Made by a program: the position numbers and the translations under genes
In this document: piece after piece, positions 12,959 through 44,186 of the stretch
How the letters are laid out: every line of letters begins with the position of its first letter
Position numbering within the stretch: position 1 is the first letter of the stretch
Notes under the pieces: generated by a model
What the model was told of the DNA's origin: nothing
Seen by the model: the letters and a program-made list of their open reading frames with translations, nothing else
Database searches by the model: none
NCBI GenBank assembly: GCA_013177805.1
Contig: JABLXU010000013.1
Location: 1-64,000 of the forward strand
DNA length: 64,000 bases
From: Candidatus Omnitrophota bacterium
GTDB taxonomy: Bacteria; Hinthialibacterota; Hinthialibacteria; Hinthialibacterales; Hinthialibacteraceae
Direction of reading: 5' to 3'

Positions 12959-13585
12959 ATGCGTATCGCCGGAGATGCCCGCCAGATCCGCCGGGGATTC
13001 ACCCTGATCGAATTGCTGATCGTCGTGGCGATCATCGGCATCTTGGCCGCGATTGCCGTGCCCAATTTTCTGAACGCGCAGGTCCGGTCCAAAGTCGCCA
13101 AGGCCGAGAGCGAAATGAACTCATTCGTGACCGCCTGCGAGATGTACCGGATCGATCACGGCAAGTATTTTCCCCATGCCGGCTATCCTTCCTCCGTTAT
13201 CCATGTCCCATGGCAGAACAAATACCTGACCACTCCCATCGCGTATTTCTCCGCCCAACCCCGTGATCCATTTCAGGACATCACCGTACCCGATCCCAAT
13301 TCCTGGAACCTGACCTTCGGCATGTATCACATGGAATCCATTTTTATGCCCGACGGCTCCTTCTATGCCGGCGGGGCGATGGATCCCAAGTTACGCGTGC
13401 CCAACAATCCCGCCGACGTGGCCCGCGCCTTTGCCAACCGCCCTCATTCGTATGAGTTGTGGAGCGTTGGCCCGAACAACAAACTCGATTACAACGTGGC
13501 GGGCAGCGGGATCACCGGCTTCATTTATTACCGGGCCAGCAACGGCATCCACAGTTTAGGCGACATTGTCTGGATCCGTCCCTGA
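12959..13585 (+). CDS. Type II secretion-style pseudopilin (orphan)
   Basis: ATG 12959 has GGGAG 8 nt upstream; an upstream in-frame ATG at 12896 lacks a site and would bury the prepilin leader. The 208-aa product has a short basic leader ending RRG, then FTLIELLIVVAIIG with the conserved Glu at +5 of the mature protein, the class III signal cut by prepilin peptidase. The helix continues into AAIAVPNFLNAQVRSKVAKA. The globular part ends with ASNGIHSLGDIVWIRP, the C-terminal SxGDI pattern shared with the other pseudopilins here. No secretion ATPase, platform protein, secretin or peptidase gene is nearby. Confidence 0.9.
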   Translation: MRIAGDARQIRRGFTLIELLIVVAIIGILAAIAVPNFLNAQVRSKVAKAESEMNSFVTACEMYRIDHGKYFPHAGYPSSVIHVPWQNKYLTTPIAYFSAQPRDPFQDITVPDPNSWNLTFGMYHMESIFMPDGSFYAGGAMDPKLRVPNNPADVARAFANRPHSYELWSVGPNNKLDYNVAGSGITGFIYYRASNGIHSLGDIVWIRP

Positions 13586-14519: not shown

Positions 14520-14993
14520 ATCTTGAGCCGTAGGGGCACGTGGCCACGTGCCCCTTCAAAAAACGAACATGTAGGATGGATTAGCGAAGCGTTATCCATC
14601 ATAACCCTTCCCTCGCCCTGGCCCGCTCCCCGAGAAAGAGATTTCTTATGTACTCCCATCTTCTATATGCATAACCCCCAATCATGCCATAAGAAATTGC
14701 TGCATTGGAGCAAATTGATTCAAAAACAGGAATGATCATTTAGAGTGAGTTTCCCCGGAAGGGTGTCCCCTCACAAAGGATTACGAAGGTGTTTCCATCC
14801 CGCTACTAAGTTATCCCATCAGCGAAACAGGAATAATAAATTCGATCTATTGATTAATTATTAACCATAGAAATCTATTTCGTCTCTATTTACTTATTTT
14901 AGGTGATAATGGTATATTCATCTCATCTCAATTCGATCTTGATCTTATAAAATCGATCATATGATCGAAAAAATCCGAAAGGAGAGCAGCAGA
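14520..14993. other. Repeat-rich gap and AT-rich leader
   Basis: The first 120 bp hold three repeats: a GGGGCACGTGG/CCACGTGCCCC hairpin (14533-14554), a family D hairpin GATGGAT...ATCCATC (14575-14600) and an inverted family A element (14605-14641). The rest is AT-rich non-coding sequence leading to the LamG gene, with a perfect palindrome listed separately. Confidence 0.7.
14953..14968. promoter_or_regulatory. Perfect 16-bp palindrome upstream of the LamG gene
   Basis: TCGATCAT/ATGATCGA is a perfect palindrome that ends 25 bp before the start codon at 14994, immediately upstream of the AAAGGAGAG ribosome site. It is a good operator candidate; the cognate regulator is unknown. Confidence 0.4.
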
Positions 14994-17018
14994 ATGAAGC
15001 AGCAGTTTTGGATGATTGGCGGGATTGCAGTGGCGGCCCTGGTGATCGGACCCTGGGGCTACACGCAAGAGGCAGGCGATGTCTACATGTGGGAATTCAA
15101 CGAGGGCAGTGGCACTACGGTGACGGATAACAGCGGCCAGTTCACGGCCAGCGTCGGTTTGCCCTTGGATCCCGCGCAGGTTCCAGAATCCCTCGCCGAT
15201 TCTCCCTCCGGTGCGGCGGGCGACCGGGCAGTGCGGGTGAACGGAGGCCTGACGGTCGACGACTCGGATTCCCCGGTGCTGGCCATCGAGTCGGGTCCCA
15301 TCACCATGGAAACCTGGATCAAGCTGGAAGGCCTGAATCAGTACAACGGCGTTCTCTCGTATGGGGCTTCTTACAAGATGGGTATCAACAACGGCGTCTT
15401 CGTTTGGACCTTCTATGGCATCGAGGATGTGAACAGCGGGATTGCCATCGAACCGGACAATGCCTGGCATCATATCGCCATGGCGTGGGAGCCGGGCGTG
15501 GGGGTGCATTTCTACTTGGATGGGGAATCGATGGGCATGGTAGAAACGGCCAATGCCGGCCGGGCGTTGCAAAACCACCTGCTGGATATCGGCAGCGAAA
15601 CGGCCGGCGCCAATCCCCTCCCCGGCCTCCTCGACCGGGTGCGGATCCACAACGCCGTGCTTACCGCCGATCAGCTCGACAGCGACGCGGCCCATCCCAA
15701 GGCGCCGTTGGCTGACACCATTGTGGCCTACGACTTCAACGAAGAACAACTGCCCTACGCGAATGGAGCCGGTGCTATCCGGCCGGCCGTAAGCACAGCC
15801 GAGCGGGCATCCGCCGACACCCGTCCGGATTTCGTGTTGGATTCCCCCACGGGAGCCGCCAACGATTATTCGCTCTATTTCGACGGGAATGACCGGGTCA
15901 TCTTCGTGGATGAGCAAGACATCATGCAGTTCATCGATGAAAGCTTCTCCTTTGAAGCGTGGCTGAAAATCGACGGCACGCAACCCAATAACCGCGCCAT
16001 CCTCTTCGCGTATGGCGTGGGCGGTCAGAACGGGTATTCGTTCTCGTTCCGGGACAACGGTCCCAAGCCCGCGGCGGATCCGGATTCGCCCTCCGGCCAG
16101 GCTGGCGATTACTCGGTCAAGGTGAACCGGGGATTGACCACGGATGATTCGGATAATCCCGTCTTGGCCATCCAGGAAGGCCCCATGACCCTGGAGGCCT
16201 GGATCAAACTGGAACGCTTGAACCAGTTCAATGACATTCTGTCCTACGGTGACACATACAAGATCGGCATCAACAATGGCCAATTCGTTTACACGTTCCG
16301 GACCATCGAAGATGTCAACAGCAATGTGGCCATCACCGCCGACAACCAATGGCATCACATCGCCATGGCCTGGGAACCGGGTGCAGGCGTGACTTTCTAT
16401 TTGGACGGCGTTCAGGCGGCTTATGTGGAAACCGGCAGCGCCCACCGGGAACTGCAGTCGAACATTCTTTATATCGGCACCGGCGCCGGCGGCAGCGCCT
16501 TGCCCGGCTGGATTGACCGCGTGCGGATCCACAACGCCGTGCTCTCCGCGGATCAACTGGACAGCGATCCGGCCCATCCCAAGGCGCCGTTGGCCAGCAC
16601 CGTGGTAGCTTACAATTTCGACGAAGGCCGGCTGCCCTATCAAAACCAGACCGGCACCCTCCGGCCCGCCGACAACCAACAGGGCCGCTTTACGCTGACC
16701 GTCACCACCTATGGGATCCTCGATGCCCATTCGAATGCCGAAATCCCGGATGACGGGCAATGGCATCACGTGGCGGCGGTGCACGACGTCTTCACGGAAC
16801 TGCGCTTCTATATCGACGGCCAGCTGAAAGAAACCAGGCCCTATGAAGGGGGGGTCCAGTTCGCGGAAGTATATGAATTCTTGATCGGCCATGAACGGAA
16901 CGGAGGTTTGCCCTATAAGGGTTCCATGGACCGGATCAAAATCACCCGCGCGGCGTTGACCGAAACCAGCCTTGATTACTTCCCGCCGGTTTCAGTGGAA
17001 GAGTGGTCCTTGTTCTGA
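14994..17018 (+). CDS. Exported multi-LamG protein ending in VEEWSLF
   Basis: ATG 14994 has AAAGGAGAG upstream. The 674-aa protein has a signal peptide (FWMIGGIAVAALVIGPWGY) and concanavalin/LamG-like jelly-roll modules, which commonly bind glycans or surface proteins. Module A1 covers residues about 66-266. Module B starts near 277 but is interrupted at residue 357 by a second A-type module (A2, 357-564), after which B resumes with RFTLTVTTYGILDAHSN to about 665. A1 and A2 share long near-identical strings such as WHHIAMAWEPG and DRVRIHNAVL. The last residues, VSVEEWSLF, match the end of the protein at 41739-44186 (AVDDWSLF). A terminator and then a pseudopilin gene follow directly. Confidence 0.85.
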   Translation: MKQQFWMIGGIAVAALVIGPWGYTQEAGDVYMWEFNEGSGTTVTDNSGQFTASVGLPLDPAQVPESLADSPSGAAGDRAVRVNGGLTVDDSDSPVLAIESGPITMETWIKLEGLNQYNGVLSYGASYKMGINNGVFVWTFYGIEDVNSGIAIEPDNAWHHIAMAWEPGVGVHFYLDGESMGMVETANAGRALQNHLLDIGSETAGANPLPGLLDRVRIHNAVLTADQLDSDAAHPKAPLADTIVAYDFNEEQLPYANGAGAIRPAVSTAERASADTRPDFVLDSPTGAANDYSLYFDGNDRVIFVDEQDIMQFIDESFSFEAWLKIDGTQPNNRAILFAYGVGGQNGYSFSFRDNGPKPAADPDSPSGQAGDYSVKVNRGLTTDDSDNPVLAIQEGPMTLEAWIKLERLNQFNDILSYGDTYKIGINNGQFVYTFRTIEDVNSNVAITADNQWHHIAMAWEPGAGVTFYLDGVQAAYVETGSAHRELQSNILYIGTGAGGSALPGWIDRVRIHNAVLSADQLDSDPAHPKAPLASTVVAYNFDEGRLPYQNQTGTLRPADNQQGRFTLTVTTYGILDAHSNAEIPDDGQWHHVAAVHDVFTELRFYIDGQLKETRPYEGGVQFAEVYEFLIGHERNGGLPYKGSMDRIKITRAALTETSLDYFPPVSVEEWSLF

Positions 17019-17148: not shown

Positions 17149-17709
17149 ATGAAAAACAGTCTTGGTTTTACACTGATCGAATTGCTGATTGTTGTAGCGA
17201 TTATCGGCATTTTAGCCGCCATTGCCGTGCCCAATTTTCTCAACGCCCAAATCCGCGCCAAGGTCGCTCGCGCCGAGGCCGATGAACGCTCTATCGGCAC
17301 GGCGTTGGAAGCGTACCGGCTGGATCACAACGCTTATCCCCTGGGCGGCGCCACCACCGGGGTGATGTTTGGACTGGACCGGCTGACTTCTCCCACGCCC
17401 TACATGTCCTCGTTGCCTACGGATCCTTTCGAGTTCAAAACCACGGTCACCGCGGGCGGCTACGGCTGGTTTCCGGATGTGATTCCCAACTATGTGTATC
17501 TCTACGCCAAGGGCGGCAGTGAAGCCCTCAGCCGCGATTACTTCTACAACACCGGCCGGATGAAAAGCCCGACTTCCGCTCCGCCTGCCATCGTGGACAT
17601 GTGGCAGCTCCGCAGTCTGGGCCCTAACGGCCAGGGCGATTACGCCTTGGCCTACAGCCCCACCAACGGCTTGGTCAGCATCGGCGATATTTGCCGCTTC
17701 GGACCATAG
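17149..17709 (+). CDS. Type II secretion-style pseudopilin (orphan)
   Basis: The start is ATG 17149 (MKNSLG then FTLIELLIVVAIIG), giving 186 aa with a five-residue leader before the cleavage Gly; a longer frame upstream passes through the terminator. The globular part contains YGWFPDVIPNYVYLYAKGG and the end is SPTNGLVSIGDICRFGP. Just upstream, GGAAGG serves better for a four-codon frame (ATG 17138) whose TGA overlaps this ATG as ATGA, so start-stop coupling is possible. The gene directly follows the LamG/WSLF gene and its terminator, so it is probably expressed from its own signals. Confidence 0.88.
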   Translation: MKNSLGFTLIELLIVVAIIGILAAIAVPNFLNAQIRAKVARAEADERSIGTALEAYRLDHNAYPLGGATTGVMFGLDRLTSPTPYMSSLPTDPFEFKTTVTAGGYGWFPDVIPNYVYLYAKGGSEALSRDYFYNTGRMKSPTSAPPAIVDMWQLRSLGPNGQGDYALAYSPTNGLVSIGDICRFGP

Positions 17710-29900: not shown

Positions 29901-30542
29901 GTGGATAATCGTCCGAGGAATCAGGGCCGTTGGCCGTCCGCGTTTACCTTGATTGAATTGCTGATCGTCGTGGCGATCATCGGCATCCTGGCCGCGATCG
30001 CCGTGCCCAATTTCCTCAACGCGCGGCTCAAGGCCCTGACTTCGCGGGTCCAGGCGGATATGCGGACGGTCAGCAATGCGTACCAGATGTATTATCTGGA
30101 CCGCAACGCCTGGCCGCCCCACTGTGACGGCCCCGCCCAGCATCGCTTCGTCACCACGCCCGTCGCGTACTTGAACATTTCGGCGGAGGATCCCTTCGCC
30201 CAATCGGAAACGGCGAAAGCGGATACGTTGTGGCAGAACACCTGGGGGCAGTATCACCCGGAAGTGGCCATGGCCTGGAATACCAAATCGTATGGTTTTG
30301 AAAACGGCATCCAAAATGATCCGGAGTATTTTCTGGCCAACCAAAACGCCGCTTTTTTCGTCATGAGCTTCGGTCCGGATGGGGATTTGGATTCCCCCCG
30401 GCCCAGCGCCGCCCGGTACGAAGCCAGCAACGGCTTGGTTTCCAACGGCGATTTCCTGACTCCCATCCCCGGCAGTTATGGACATGGGCATCCGTATACC
30501 GGATTCTACGATTGTTCGGGCTATACCGCCGGGGAATTGTAG
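29901..30542 (+). CDS. Type II secretion-style pseudopilin (orphan)
   Basis: GTG 29901 is preferred because GGAGGAG is 8 nt upstream; an ATG at 29883 has no ribosome site. The 213-aa product has FTLIELLIVVAIIG after a leader of about 15 residues with several Arg, but the residue before the Phe is Ala instead of the usual Gly (PSAFTLIE), so processing may be less efficient. The globular domain contains YQMYYLDRNAWPPHCDGPAQ and SFGPDGDLDSPRP; the C-terminus is longer than in its paralogues, past ASNGLVSNGDFL. It is convergent with a beta-helix protein gene 24 bp away. Confidence 0.88.
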   Translation: MDNRPRNQGRWPSAFTLIELLIVVAIIGILAAIAVPNFLNARLKALTSRVQADMRTVSNAYQMYYLDRNAWPPHCDGPAQHRFVTTPVAYLNISAEDPFAQSETAKADTLWQNTWGQYHPEVAMAWNTKSYGFENGIQNDPEYFLANQNAAFFVMSFGPDGDLDSPRPSAARYEASNGLVSNGDFLTPIPGSYGHGHPYTGFYDCSGYTAGEL

Positions 30543-30566: not shown

Positions 30567-31664
30567 TCAATATATCAACCACGATGGCGCCGCGGTCCGG
30601 GTGGTTTGGTCCGCGCCGATGTTGATCCCGCCCGCGCCCGCGCCGATGGCGGGAGATCCGGGTTTCAAGATGAAATTCTTGGCATTGATACCGGTCAACA
30701 GCGGATCCATGTTGACGAGGTCCGTGGCGTCCGGCGGTCTTTCCACTTTTTCATTACCTCCGCCGAAATTTCCCGATCCAGTGATCAGCAGATTGTGGTT
30801 TTCCTTAAAAGCCAGCAATTTGTCCCCATGTCCCCAGCAGGCGACCGGGCCGAAGGGCGCGAAGCCCGCGGCGGGGTCCACGTTCCCGCCGGGGATCAGG
30901 ATGGAATTTGTGATTTCCACCTCGATTCCATCCCCGCTCGAATCGGCCAGGGATTGCAGGGAGATCAAGAGCGGCTGGTTCGGGGTTTCGACCGGATAGC
31001 CCACCACCGTGCATTGGTCGATCACCAGTTTGCCGGTCATGCCCGGTTGTCCGCCGAATTGGCCGTAGCGCAGAACCGCCTGCCCGCTCGTGTAATCCAT
31101 GAAACAGCGGCGGAACGTGATGGAAACCGCGTCCAGGTCAATGCGGGCGATCGCGCCCGGTTCGCCCGCGCCGCCGAATCCGGTGAAGACACAATCCTCG
31201 AAGGTCACGTTTTCGATCACGGTTGGGTCTCCATCCGGCTGGTTGGAATTGTCATTTTGCGTATTGCCGAACAGGGCGATGAAAAATCCCGGCGCGTACG
31301 GGGCTTCTCCCACGGGCGCGGCCGTGTCGTTCGCCACGAAACGCAGGTTGCGGATGGTGACATTGTCCGCGAAGACGCCCTCCCACTTGGCGGAATCGAG
31401 CAGGGTGATCGTGCGGGCCGGCCCCGCCGGATCGCTTTCCAACACGATGCTGTTTCCCGTGATGAACGGCAGCACATTGATCCCACCCGGTTCGAACACC
31501 AGGTCTTCCCCGACATAAATGACGTTGTTGGGCACGGATACCGCCGCGGCCAGTTCTTCCGGTGTGGTGACCGTCACGGCTTGGGAATAGGCGGGAAAGG
31601 AGACAGTCAATACCAAAATACAGGCCATTCCCGCGCGCGAGATTGTTTGGCGATTGCGGTTCAT
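30567..31664 (-). CDS. Exported right-handed beta-helix protein
   Basis: ATG 31664 has AAAGGAGAG upstream. The 365-aa product has a signal peptide (GMACILVLTVSFPAYSQA) and then parallel beta-helix coils: repeated short strands with Asn/Val/Ile ladders such as DNVTIRNLRFVAND, PTVIENVTFEDCVF and DAVSITFRRCFMD. Such folds bind or cleave polysaccharides. The C-terminal part (FILKPGSPAIGAGAGGINIG) is typical of choice-of-anchor proteins. It ends APSWLIY, which faintly recalls the WSLF ends of two other exported proteins in the window. No catalytic residues of pectate lyases could be recognised. A pseudopilin gene is convergent with it. Confidence 0.8.
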   Translation of the reverse strand: MNRNRQTISRAGMACILVLTVSFPAYSQAVTVTTPEELAAAVSVPNNVIYVGEDLVFEPGGINVLPFITGNSIVLESDPAGPARTITLLDSAKWEGVFADNVTIRNLRFVANDTAAPVGEAPYAPGFFIALFGNTQNDNSNQPDGDPTVIENVTFEDCVFTGFGGAGEPGAIARIDLDAVSITFRRCFMDYTSGQAVLRYGQFGGQPGMTGKLVIDQCTVVGYPVETPNQPLLISLQSLADSSGDGIEVEITNSILIPGGNVDPAAGFAPFGPVACWGHGDKLLAFKENHNLLITGSGNFGGGNEKVERPPDATDLVNMDPLLTGINAKNFILKPGSPAIGAGAGGINIGADQTTRTAAPSWLIY

Positions 31665-32144: not shown

Positions 32145-32762
32145 TCAATGCCCCATGCGGTACAGGTCGCCGCGGCTGTAGAGGCCGTTGGAAGGCGCGT
32201 AGGCCAGCAGCCAGTCTTTGGCGGTGACACCGGGCAGGTCCTGCTGCCGTTCGCCGTCCGGTCCGCGGCCGAAGAGCACCCACGTGAGGCTTTCGTACCG
32301 CCGTCCGTTGAATACTTCAAACTCTTTCCGGCTGCGCGGCGGGGCCGGCCCGCACCGCAGATACCAGTACGAGTGGATCCACTCAGGAGGCAGCTGGTTC
32401 ATCTTGTTTTCCAGGCTTTCGAACGTGTCGCGGGGCAGGCTGCTGAGATAAGCGATGGGCGAGGTCAATTCATAGTGATGCGAGATGATGGCCAAATTCA
32501 CCCGTGAAAACGAAAAACGCCCGCCGATGGGCCGTTTGCCGGCATCGGGAATGTTCTGATCCTGCCAATCAGGCGGGTAGGCGTTGTTGTCCAACCGGTA
32601 CATCTCCAGCGCGTGGTCGAGGGCCGTGAGATCGGCCTCCGCGCGGGCGATTTGCGACCGGACGCGCGCGTTCAGGAAATTCGGGACCGCGATGGCCGCC
32701 AACACCCCGATGATGGCCACCACGATCAGCAATTCAATCAAGGTAAATGAGCGATCGGTCAT
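32145..32762 (-). CDS. Type II secretion-style pseudopilin (orphan)
   Basis: The 205-aa product starts MTDRS followed by FTLIELLIVVAIIG; the residue at the cleavage site is Ser, not Gly. The helix continues to AAIAVPNFLNARVRSQIARA. The globular domain carries YWYLRCGPAPPRSRKEFEVF and the end is APSNGLYSRGDLYRMGH, the same NG-S-x-GD pattern as its paralogues. It is divergent from the DUF362 protein gene, with about 110 bp between the start codons. Confidence 0.9.
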   Translation of the reverse strand: MTDRSFTLIELLIVVAIIGVLAAIAVPNFLNARVRSQIARAEADLTALDHALEMYRLDNNAYPPDWQDQNIPDAGKRPIGGRFSFSRVNLAIISHHYELTSPIAYLSSLPRDTFESLENKMNQLPPEWIHSYWYLRCGPAPPRSRKEFEVFNGRRYESLTWVLFGRGPDGERQQDLPGVTAKDWLLAYAPSNGLYSRGDLYRMGH

Positions 32763-40928: not shown

Positions 40929-41546
40929 ATGAAACAAAACCAATCCTTCACCCTGATTGAATTGCTGATCGTCGTGGCCATTATCGGCGTGTTGGCGGCC
41001 ATCGCGGTCCCGAATTTCCTGAACGCGCAAGTCCGGGCCTTGATCAGCCGTTCCATGGCTGACATCCGGGCGCAGGCGAACGCCATCGACATGTACCGGA
41101 TCGACAACAACTTCATTCCCTTCCGGCCGCCGGGATGGCCGTGCGGCCTGTGCGAAGTCAGCCAACTTTCGCACACGTACAACCTGAGTCCGATCACCAC
41201 TCCAATCGCCTACATGACCCAGATTCCATACGATCCGTTCATCGACATGCCCAGCAACGTGACGATGACCGACGACCGGGGAGACGGCCTGCAGGCGGGG
41301 TGGTATCTATACGTGGGGATCAAGCAGGGATTGGATTCCCTGCATGGGACCTGGTGGGTGTGGGGATGGGGGCCGGACAAGACGCGCCAGGCCTATCCCA
41401 CCCGCCCCTACGATCCCAGCAACGGCCTGAACTCCAAGGGGGACATCATCGCCAGCGAAAAGCAGGGATTCTTGCGGATCGACCTCTCCGGTCCGGCAGG
41501 CGTCCCCTACACCCAAGATAACGAAACCATCAAACTGGGACAATGA
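40929..41546 (+). CDS. Type II secretion-style pseudopilin (orphan)
   Basis: ATG 40929 opens a 205-aa product: MKQNQS then FTLIELLIVVAIIG, with Ser before the Phe. No strong ribosome site is present. The globular domain has a Trp/Pro/Cys-rich segment (FRPPGWPCGLCEVSQLSHTY) and ends beyond the shared NGLNSKGDI motif with a tail of about 30 residues. It is convergent with the gene of the 815-aa exported protein that ends VDDWSLF, with a bidirectional terminator between them. Confidence 0.9.
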   Translation: MKQNQSFTLIELLIVVAIIGVLAAIAVPNFLNAQVRALISRSMADIRAQANAIDMYRIDNNFIPFRPPGWPCGLCEVSQLSHTYNLSPITTPIAYMTQIPYDPFIDMPSNVTMTDDRGDGLQAGWYLYVGIKQGLDSLHGTWWVWGWGPDKTRQAYPTRPYDPSNGLNSKGDIIASEKQGFLRIDLSGPAGVPYTQDNETIKLGQ

Positions 41547-41738: not shown

Positions 41739-44186
41739 TTAGAACAAGGACCAGTCATCCACCGCGGTCGGCTCACCGGCCGGGTAGCACCAAATGTCGT
41801 AGAGATTGAAGGCCACGGCCCCGCCGTTCTGGCTCTTTTCCAGATCCAGTTCCAGCGTGACGGAGACAAGCACCTTGTCCGGATTGACCGGCGCGGCGTG
41901 TTCGTTGACTGCCGGATCGTTGGCATCGGCGAAGAGGCTGGAACCGTCGAGCCGGTCCATGCCGTTGATCAGCAAGGTCACGTCATCCCACATCCAGGTG
42001 GCATCCCCGGGATCGCGGAACCAATCGTCGGCGTGGATTTCGGTCTGCTCGGACGTGCCATCTTGATAATGCAACGTGCATTTCAGGACACCATAGCCGT
42101 TGCCTACGGTCATCGCCGCCCGCAATTCGCTGTACTGGCCGGGCGGAACCACGTTGAAGGTGAACGGCCCGCGCTGCGCGGCGGCGTTATTGAACTTGAT
42201 CGAGTTTTTCAGGCCCAACTCTTCGAACGCGTTGTTATAGGGTCCCAGGATGTGGCCATTGAGGCCGCTCATGCGGTCGGGCGGCAGACCATTGGCCACA
42301 AACGCGGTGCCGGCCGCGTTGTAGTACAGATACCCCGCGACGATGAGATAGTAATTGTTGCCGATGTCATGTCCGAAACCCGGCTGGCCCGTAATTCCGT
42401 CGTCATACTGATCGACCGAAATGACATCCCACACCGGGAGGTTGGGATCACGGTTGGGATCGTTAAAGGTCAGGTCCACGCGTCCCGCCCCCGCCGGAGG
42501 CAAGGCCGGATCGGAGCTGATCCAGATGTTGTCGAAATACGCGGAACCCGAGCCCGAGCCGCGGCGCAAGCGGATTTCCGCGATGTCGCTGATTTCATCG
42601 TTGTTGGGTCCGCCGGCATCGTAGGTATCCATCCGGTCGGATTCATCGGGATTGATCCACAGATACACGCTGTCGTTCTGTCCCGAACCTGAATTCAGGA
42701 CATAACGGACCAGGTAATGATTCGCCACGGTATAATTGGCCTGGGTCAAGCTATCCCCGCCCGGCAGGTTGCCGATGCCCGCTTTATCGGCGTTGTAGGG
42801 TTTGCCGACGAAGCTGGATTCAGAACCGTTGGAAGCGAACAGGGTCAGTCCTGCCCAATGGTCGGCCGCGGGGCCTTCATCCAGAAAGACGAATGACACC
42901 CACAGCTCACCCGTGGAGACCGGTTCAAATTTGCGGCCGACGCCGTTATCCGCGCTTCCGGTCACCCGGACCGAAAATCCGCCAGGATTGTATTCAGCCG
43001 GTTGATTCTGCACCAAACCGGCTTCGAGGATTTTGGTATCCAGGGCGTTCGGCGATAAAGCGCCTGAATTGGCCCAACCCGATGCCCAGCCGAATCCGCC
43101 TTGTTGCTGCAGGTTGGCCAAAGCGGTGCCGGCTTGTTCCAGCGGATAGGAAAATGTCTCATAAATATTGAACCTCCGGAGAGGAACCGAAGAGGCCATG
43201 GGAACAGTTAAAGTGCCGTCCGTGGCCTCACCCGTGAAATTGATGTTCCCGTAGGAAGTCCGGGTCGGGGCCTGCAAATCATACGTCAAGGAAGCCGAGC
43301 CGGTGACGTTGCTCAACGTCCATGTGATGACGCCATTGGCCATGGTGAAGTTTCCCGCGGTGGCGTTCACGTTGCTGACCGCCAGATCGGCTGGAAGCGT
43401 TTCTTTCACCGTGAGATTGGCCACCGTCTGGCCTTCCCGCACGTCCACCCTCACGGTGATCCCCTGTATGCTCTGCCCGAGAGAATAGGATTGCACCGGC
43501 ACAATCCGGCTGGCCGACCAGGGATATTCCTGGAGAACCACGTTTTGGAAATAACCCGTGCTGATCTGACCGTTGTTATGCGACGTCACCGCCAAGCCCA
43601 CGTACACCGGATCCTGAAGACCGGGCACCACATGGGTCAAATGCAAGACCCGCTGGCCGGTTTCGAGATTCACGTAATAAAAGTTCAACGTGGTGCCAAC
43701 CCGTTCCACTTCCACGTTGCCCTCTTGGACACCCGTCCCGTCAATCCCGCCAACCAGGGTAGCGTCGCCACCCCAGTCCGCCTCGGCACCTTGCGTATTC
43801 CGCCATTGCGGAGCAAAATCCTGCCCGCTGGACCGGATCATGGCGAATCCAAAGGGCGAACCCGGTGTCAGATTGTCCCGCACCATCAGGCCGGCCTTGG
43901 TCCAGGTGGCGTCCCCGCCTCCAACCTCCGCATAGACCTTGCCCTTGATCGTGAAGGCCCCGGTCATTTCCTTGTAGAGGAAATGAAAGCCATCCGCCGT
44001 GCCCCAGATATCGGCCCCACTGCCTTCAATGATGTACTCATCGTTCTCGAGTTTGGCGCTGCCCGCCGCACCCACATCGCCGATGTCCTGGGACTGGGTA
44101 AAAATCCCAATCTGCGCGTGGGACGGGGCAGCAACCCAGAGAACAACGGCTACCCAAAATCCGTATTGCGTGATTTTCCTCATCAT
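41739..44186 (-). CDS. Exported multi-domain beta-sandwich protein ending in VDDWSLF
   Basis: ATG 44186 has GGGAGGTAAGG upstream. The 815-aa product has a signal peptide (GFWVAVVLWVAAPSHAQ). Residues about 25-210 form a DUF1349-like concanavalin domain (GADIWGTADGFHFLYKEMTG, SHNNGQISTGYFQNVVLQEY). Residues about 215-330 look like a DUF11-type conserved repeat (VKETLPADLAVSNVNATAGN). A LamG-like module follows (340-560) and then a jelly-roll with WDVISVDQYDDGITGQPGFG and HYQDGTSEQTEIHADDWF. The final AVDDWSLF is almost identical to the end of the LamG protein at 14994-17018. It is probably a surface or secreted glycan-binding protein. The convergent neighbour is a pseudopilin. Confidence 0.85.
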   Translation of the reverse strand: MMRKITQYGFWVAVVLWVAAPSHAQIGIFTQSQDIGDVGAAGSAKLENDEYIIEGSGADIWGTADGFHFLYKEMTGAFTIKGKVYAEVGGGDATWTKAGLMVRDNLTPGSPFGFAMIRSSGQDFAPQWRNTQGAEADWGGDATLVGGIDGTGVQEGNVEVERVGTTLNFYYVNLETGQRVLHLTHVVPGLQDPVYVGLAVTSHNNGQISTGYFQNVVLQEYPWSASRIVPVQSYSLGQSIQGITVRVDVREGQTVANLTVKETLPADLAVSNVNATAGNFTMANGVITWTLSNVTGSASLTYDLQAPTRTSYGNINFTGEATDGTLTVPMASSVPLRRFNIYETFSYPLEQAGTALANLQQQGGFGWASGWANSGALSPNALDTKILEAGLVQNQPAEYNPGGFSVRVTGSADNGVGRKFEPVSTGELWVSFVFLDEGPAADHWAGLTLFASNGSESSFVGKPYNADKAGIGNLPGGDSLTQANYTVANHYLVRYVLNSGSGQNDSVYLWINPDESDRMDTYDAGGPNNDEISDIAEIRLRRGSGSGSAYFDNIWISSDPALPPAGAGRVDLTFNDPNRDPNLPVWDVISVDQYDDGITGQPGFGHDIGNNYYLIVAGYLYYNAAGTAFVANGLPPDRMSGLNGHILGPYNNAFEELGLKNSIKFNNAAAQRGPFTFNVVPPGQYSELRAAMTVGNGYGVLKCTLHYQDGTSEQTEIHADDWFRDPGDATWMWDDVTLLINGMDRLDGSSLFADANDPAVNEHAAPVNPDKVLVSVTLELDLEKSQNGGAVAFNLYDIWCYPAGEPTAVDDWSLF

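Follow-up and report, generated by a model that had tools for sequence, protein, structure and literature searches.

Why should two otherwise unrelated exported proteins end in almost the same residues? The question is raised by a stretch of 64,000 nucleotides, hereafter the window, from a genome of the phylum Hinthialibacterota (G000; 5.58 Mb in 93 contigs, with the window at C5:1-64000). Here, the protein encoded at 14994-17018 (+) ends in PPVSVEEWSLF and the one at 41739-44186 (-) in EPTAVDDWSLF, each followed directly by the stop codon, which bears out the shared WSLF ending that a preliminary description of this DNA had reported. The same description held the two proteins to be unrelated, and the comparison agrees: Pfam recognizes LamG domains in the first and a weak DUF11 alone in the second, and the top local BLASTP match between the 674-aa and the 815-aa protein is the last 10 residues (E 0.40), with no convincing alignment outside them. 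A third ending, APSWLIY, had been named as a weaker relative; as TAAPSWLIY, it fits the relaxed motif (Table 1). In an AlphaFold2 model of the 815-aa protein that is poor overall (mean pLDDT 54), the last strand (793-802) is followed by residues 805-815 with a pLDDT below 50, and the tag is predicted to be unstructured. The two WSLF proteins are 2 of about 40 tagged proteins so far in the analysed part of this genome. Antisense to the LamG gene runs a 654-aa open frame (14928-16892, minus strand), which is probably a by-product of codon bias.

Table 1. Tagged genes, their C-terminal tags and pseudopilin-like genes in the window
Feature	Position	Strand	Remarks
Tagged exported protein 1, multi-LamG (Laminin_G_3), 674 aa, Sec signal peptide	14994..17018	+	Tag at end
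Tag PVSVEEWSLF + stop	16986..17018	+	C-terminal on tagged protein 1
Tagged exported protein 2, 815 aa, Sec signal peptide, DUF11-like middle	41739..44186	-	Tag at end
Tag PTAVDDWSLF + stop	41739..41771	-	On tagged protein 2; predicted unstructured, poor model
Third tagged exported protein, 365 aa	30567..31664	-	Relaxed tag TAAPSWLIY; beta-helix according to the preliminary description; no Pfam match
Relaxed C-terminal tag TAAPSWLIY + stop	30567..30596	-	On third tagged protein
Pseudopilin-like gene (N_methyl, T2SSG)	17149..17709	+	Same strand, 131 bp after tagged protein 1
Pseudopilin-like gene (N_methyl)	40929..41546	+	Convergent with tagged protein 2, 193 bp away
Pseudopilin-like gene	29901..30542	+	Convergent with third tagged gene, 25 bp
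Pseudopilin-like gene	32145..32762	-	Upstream of third tagged gene, same strand, 481 bp
N_methyl-type pseudopilin gene	12959-13585		

A nine-residue tail on exported proteins

Collected from 81 tagged proteins, the tail has the consensus [TAS]-x-V-x-[DEN]-W-S-[LI]-[YF]-stop, about nine residues preceded by a linker rich in Pro, Gly and Ala. While W at -4 (81 proteins) was fixed by the search, the preferences at -9 (T 39, A 18, V 11, S 11) and -5 (D 44, E 14, N 8) were not imposed by the regular expression used for collecting; V stands at -7 in 70 proteins, L (73) or I (8) at -2, and Y (52) or F (28) at -1. Position -3 is S in 52 and S or T in 56 of the 81 tails, and otherwise E, A, M, P, R, D and others, and six tails carry one extra residue at the end. 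WSLF-type tails are far more frequent than expected by chance. In the whole genome, the degenerate DNA pattern V-x-x-W-[ST]-L-[FY]-stop has 22 matches and the reversed pattern none, almost all of the 22 being ends of long, codon-biased open reading frames (ORFs), and a relaxed pattern (T/A at -9, V at -7, W-x-L-[FY]-stop) yields 26 matches against one in the control. The 1,623 called proteins (606,138 residues) contain [TASV].V.[DEN]W.[LI][FY] 71 times at the C terminus and once internally.

Are the tagged proteins exported? The preliminary description had proposed to test for an enrichment of the tag among proteins with signal peptides, and within-genome tests of modest size find it. In 800 kb of the same genome, chosen irrespective of the tag and minus stretches already taken for it, a relaxed tail W-x-[LIM]-[FYM] ends 10 of the 220 genes for which a signal peptide is predicted, compared with 1 of the 329 without one (p=7e-4); this exception is an ORF truncated at the edge of a stretch. 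Signal peptides occur on 20 of the 22 strict-tagged genes of this genome, and on 26/26 tagged versus 62/169 untagged genes at 20 loci sampled in five further genera of the family (G001-G005), with several loci picked for holding tags; the absolute rates are approximate, because both the signal-peptide rule and the caller that set the gene starts were simple and home-made.

The carriers are diverse. Homology groups the 81 tagged proteins into 45 clusters, a number that rises to 52 when the similarity must extend to the last 40 residues. The domains of these proteins (CBM9, LamG, golvesin, LTD, CotH, NAGPA, M23, amidase, fn3, GH57) are those of surface or extracellular proteins. Conserved tail residues use all synonymous codons (six for Ser, six for Leu, four for Val), and selection therefore acts on the protein. 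Exported proteins thus almost certainly share a real C-terminal tag that had not been described before and on which selection acts at the protein level. No NCBIfam model was found that covers it, our literature search returned no description of the motif (DWSLF-type text matches were unrelated by title), and neither a Hydrogenedentota/Sumerlaeota genome paper nor a Sumerlaeota genome paper mentions sorting tags.

Distribution among genomes

The tag is nearly confined to two phyla, Hinthialibacterota and Sumerlaeota. In a scan of 84,980 named genomes, which may lack the closest records to the window, the strict pattern matched 43 stretches. In 13 of these the tag ends an ORF of at least 250 aa (seven Sumerlaeota, five Hinthialibacterota-type, one UBP4), and the remaining matches sit on ORFs of at most 65 aa. 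Within a sample of 386 genomes, those of the family have 10-31 relaxed matches compared with 0-3 in controls, and about 370 other genomes are at control level. Tagged relatives include Candidatus Hinthialibacteria bacterium OLB16 (G010), bacterium RI_285 (G004) and an 'Omnitrophota' MAG (G006); a second tagged group, f17 (G025, G173, G312), is Sumerlaeota, G173 being BRC1/Sumerlaeota HGW-BRC1-1. For these two uncultured phyla, the tail provides a sequence rule for predicting the surface and secreted proteome.

One member of the class, G011, has no tag matches, although type II secretion system (T2SS) loci with GspF are found there; in a search for the reader of the tag, it offers a natural point of comparison. 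Outside both phyla, a lone long ORF of 773 aa in UBP4 bacterium UBA6127 (L153, 5679-8000, minus strand) ends in VVDWSLF, which may be chance or a third lineage.

Pseudopilin neighbours and a candidate reader

If the tail is a signal, what reads it? The preliminary description had hoped for a dedicated partner gene, and none emerged: in an all-against-all comparison of the genes around tagged loci, no partner recurred except pseudopilins. In the window, each of the three tagged genes has a pseudopilin neighbour. Such neighbours are easy to find, because this genome of 5.6 Mb holds about 129 genes whose products have a type IV pilin/pseudopilin N terminus (N_methyl), yet within-genome tests, again of modest size, show them to be over-represented beside tagged genes. 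An immediate pseudopilin neighbour accompanies 7/22 strict-tagged genes versus 11/197 random exported genes of this genome (p=6e-4), a result replicated in other genera (6/26 tagged versus 11/169, p=0.014; same strand in 6/6), and a pseudopilin starts within 400 bp downstream on the same strand of 5/34 tagged versus 9/524 random genes (p=8e-4). A pseudopilin neighbour is lacking beside most tagged genes, including all those sampled from Sumerlaeota and from the f2 order. Many of the N_methyl genes encode about 200 aa, start with FTLIELLIVVAIIGILAAIAVPNF and have ends like SPTNGLVSxGDI; most lie outside T2SS operons.

T2SS genes themselves are abundant. GspF loci occur in 17/17 genomes, most of which have about 5-8 of them, and the loci examined hold full GspE-F-G-H-I-J-K-L-M operons and a GspD secretin. 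The genome of the window has at least two separate T2SS operons, L207 (G000:C7:2429-22428) and L208 (G000:C54:5920-25919), in which the proteins at the GspC position have about 180-210 aa and match no Pfam family. Clustering of tags at core T2SS loci (G173 L069, G006 L078, G010 L076, G012 L080) looked striking at first and was dropped, because most genomes have about 5-8 GspF loci and 20 GspF-bearing loci hold only 3 tagged genes, compared with about 7 expected from the rate in unselected DNA.

Taken together, the tail is very probably a sorting or anchoring signal, and its best explanation, which we consider probable, is a genuine linear sorting tag at the C terminus that serves secretion across the outer membrane or display on the surface. 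In such a mechanism, Sec would carry tagged proteins through the inner membrane, their tail being a flexible linear peptide, and a periplasmic or outer-membrane receptor would bind the V/W/L/aromatic face of the tail. A protein bound in this way would be chosen for transport through the outer membrane or for attachment there, which would place adhesins, carbohydrate-binding proteins and proteins acting on the wall outside the cell. Since pseudopilin genes often adjoin tagged genes and complete T2SS operons are present in the genomes, the leading candidate for the reader is the T2SS (pseudopilus) machine, a possible lead in which our confidence is low. Against it speak the shortfall of tagged genes at GspF-bearing loci, the many tagged genes that lack a pseudopilin beside them, the GspC-position proteins without a PDZ match, and G011, where GspF loci occur without tags. 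We know of no general linear signal for T2SS substrates. The tagged proteins resemble these substrates as folded, Sec-exported exoproteins (with the signal-peptide counts given above for this genome and for G001-G005) in genomes with complete T2SS operons, and in their pseudopilin neighbours. Recognition by the T2SS has been ascribed to Ig/Fn3-type domains and loops, and selection has been called poorly understood (PMC12369372). The most specific proposal, rather unlikely as a whole, is that this helix-free, transferable tail is the substrate address for the T2SS or another outer-membrane translocator in Hinthialibacterota and Sumerlaeota, with the co-encoded pseudopilins as adaptors. If it were true, a system with undefined substrate signals would gain a simple sequence signal; and if it is the T2SS that reads the tail, substrate recognition would become testable with a nine-residue peptide.

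Could the tail be an anchor and not an address? After an unrelated secretion step, it might dock in a surface receptor, or insert its W/L/aromatic tip into the outer-membrane interface, and so retain the protein on the cell. The aromatic-rich tip W-x-L-[YF], the surface-type domains and the tail predicted to be disordered in one poor model are consistent with this idea, as are the NCBIfam matches of some tagged members to the choice-of-anchor J, X and GloVer families, which agree equally with a sorting tag. Choice-of-anchor domains by definition precede varied C-terminal anchoring signals; among the NCBIfam families listed for tagged proteins, none is a model of the tail itself. However, the fixed V at -7, [DEN] at -5 and T/A/S at -9 favour a specific binding groove over general membrane affinity. 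A membrane-spanning anchor is contradicted by the hydropathy of the tails: in the last 45 residues of the 81 proteins, no 17-residue stretch exceeds a mean of 1.46. We regard an anchor of this kind as unlikely, and a sorting tag as the preferred reading.

Comparison with known sorting systems

As a short, lineage-restricted C-terminal signature on many unrelated Sec-exported proteins, the tail is reminiscent of PEP-CTERM/exosortase (TIGR02595, PF09721). Phyletic restriction and many-to-one tagging also recall GlyGly-CTERM/rhombosortase and MYXO-CTERM/myxosortase, which are phylum- or lineage-specific as well. The tail might therefore be the substrate of a new exosortase-, sortase- or rhombosortase-like enzyme that cuts or lipidates it. 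However, the PEP-CTERM tail is tripartite (motif, transmembrane helix, basic cluster), and so are the GlyGly-CTERM and MYXO-CTERM tails (motif, membrane helix, basic tail), which are cut by intramembrane proteases. The tail described here ends at the motif, with almost nothing left to cleave. It has neither helix nor basic cluster, as the preliminary description had said: besides the low hydropathy, K and R make up 1.7% of the last 12 residues of the 81 tails. Judged on the tails, the Gly/Ser motif, helix and basic end of GlyGly-CTERM do not match, with helix and basic end missing, and the logo lacks the conserved Cys and helix that, with an Arg-rich end, are the hallmarks of MYXO-CTERM. Proteins with these two tags also reach the surface via the T2SS (PMC6219818, PMC11980579).

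Exosortase PF09721 is absent in G000-G008, G025 and G312 and present in G009, G010, G012, G013 and G173, and none of G000, G005 and G025 has PEP-CTERM tails. The IPTL-CTERM family (TIGR04174) has the signature IPTLSEWG.., which resembles T-x-V-S-[DE]-W-S at matching positions, a likeness that is only a lead; in contrast to IPTL-CTERM, no helix follows in the tail here, and TIGR04174 matched in 0/17 genomes. Exosortase, PEP-CTERM and IPTL-CTERM were accordingly rejected as the tag system, being absent from the tag-rich genomes searched for them, and processing by a sortase-like enzyme is very unlikely. Family f4 (G010, G012, G013) has exosortase and PEP-CTERM proteins alongside the new tag, so one tag system does not depend on the other. 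No swapping of the tag with PEP-CTERM was seen between homologues. The tail thus adds to the exosortase-, sortase- and rhombosortase-type tags a C-terminal sorting tag without their membrane helix.

Other C-terminal signals share single features. The type IX secretion C-terminal domain is likewise an address on Sec-exported surface proteins. Type IX signals are Ig-like domains of about 80 residues, whereas the 45 unrelated clusters have no homologous Ig-like C-terminal domain; no type IX tail family is among the 25 most frequent Pfam/NCBIfam families listed, and a search of the 17 genomes for SprA_N (PF14349), run without a positive control, returned no match. Type I secretion signals and outer-membrane beta-signals also have an extreme C terminus that is acidic then hydrophobic, or aromatic-ended. 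Unlike the tagged proteins, however, type I substrates lack Sec signal peptides, and the beta-signal has hydrophobic residues at -1, -3, -5 and -7, the tail at -1, -2, -4 and -7.

Might the tail instead regulate turnover, as a PDZ-type C-terminal ligand recognized by a periplasmic quality-control system or protease? Its free hydrophobic C terminus would suit this, and with S/T at -3 and an aromatic last residue many members look like class I PDZ ligands. Yet the 81 tails do not keep [ST]-x-hydrophobic-COOH at a fixed register, since -3 is also E, A, M, P, R or D and the tails with an extra residue shift the frame, and a self-destruction signal is unlikely to be conserved so strongly on structural proteins. 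Such a role is highly improbable. Reading of the tail by GspC through a PDZ domain was likewise rejected, as the GspC-position proteins have no PDZ match and position -3 is loose.

The probability that the tail spread through common ancestry of the last domain, or as a DNA repeat, is negligible: there are paralogues among the tagged proteins, in clusters of up to 16, but the shared last domain that the preliminary description had named as a possible explanation fails with 45 unrelated clusters (52 by last-40-residue homology), every synonymous codon is used, and there is no similarity upstream of the tail. Within families, the linker varies and the tail is constant, for example in DIWCYPAGEPTAVDDWSLF, DIWALPAEGATGVADWSLF and DIWAVPADSGTPVSDWSLF; in the P0002 family, too, the tag is fixed and the linker differs.
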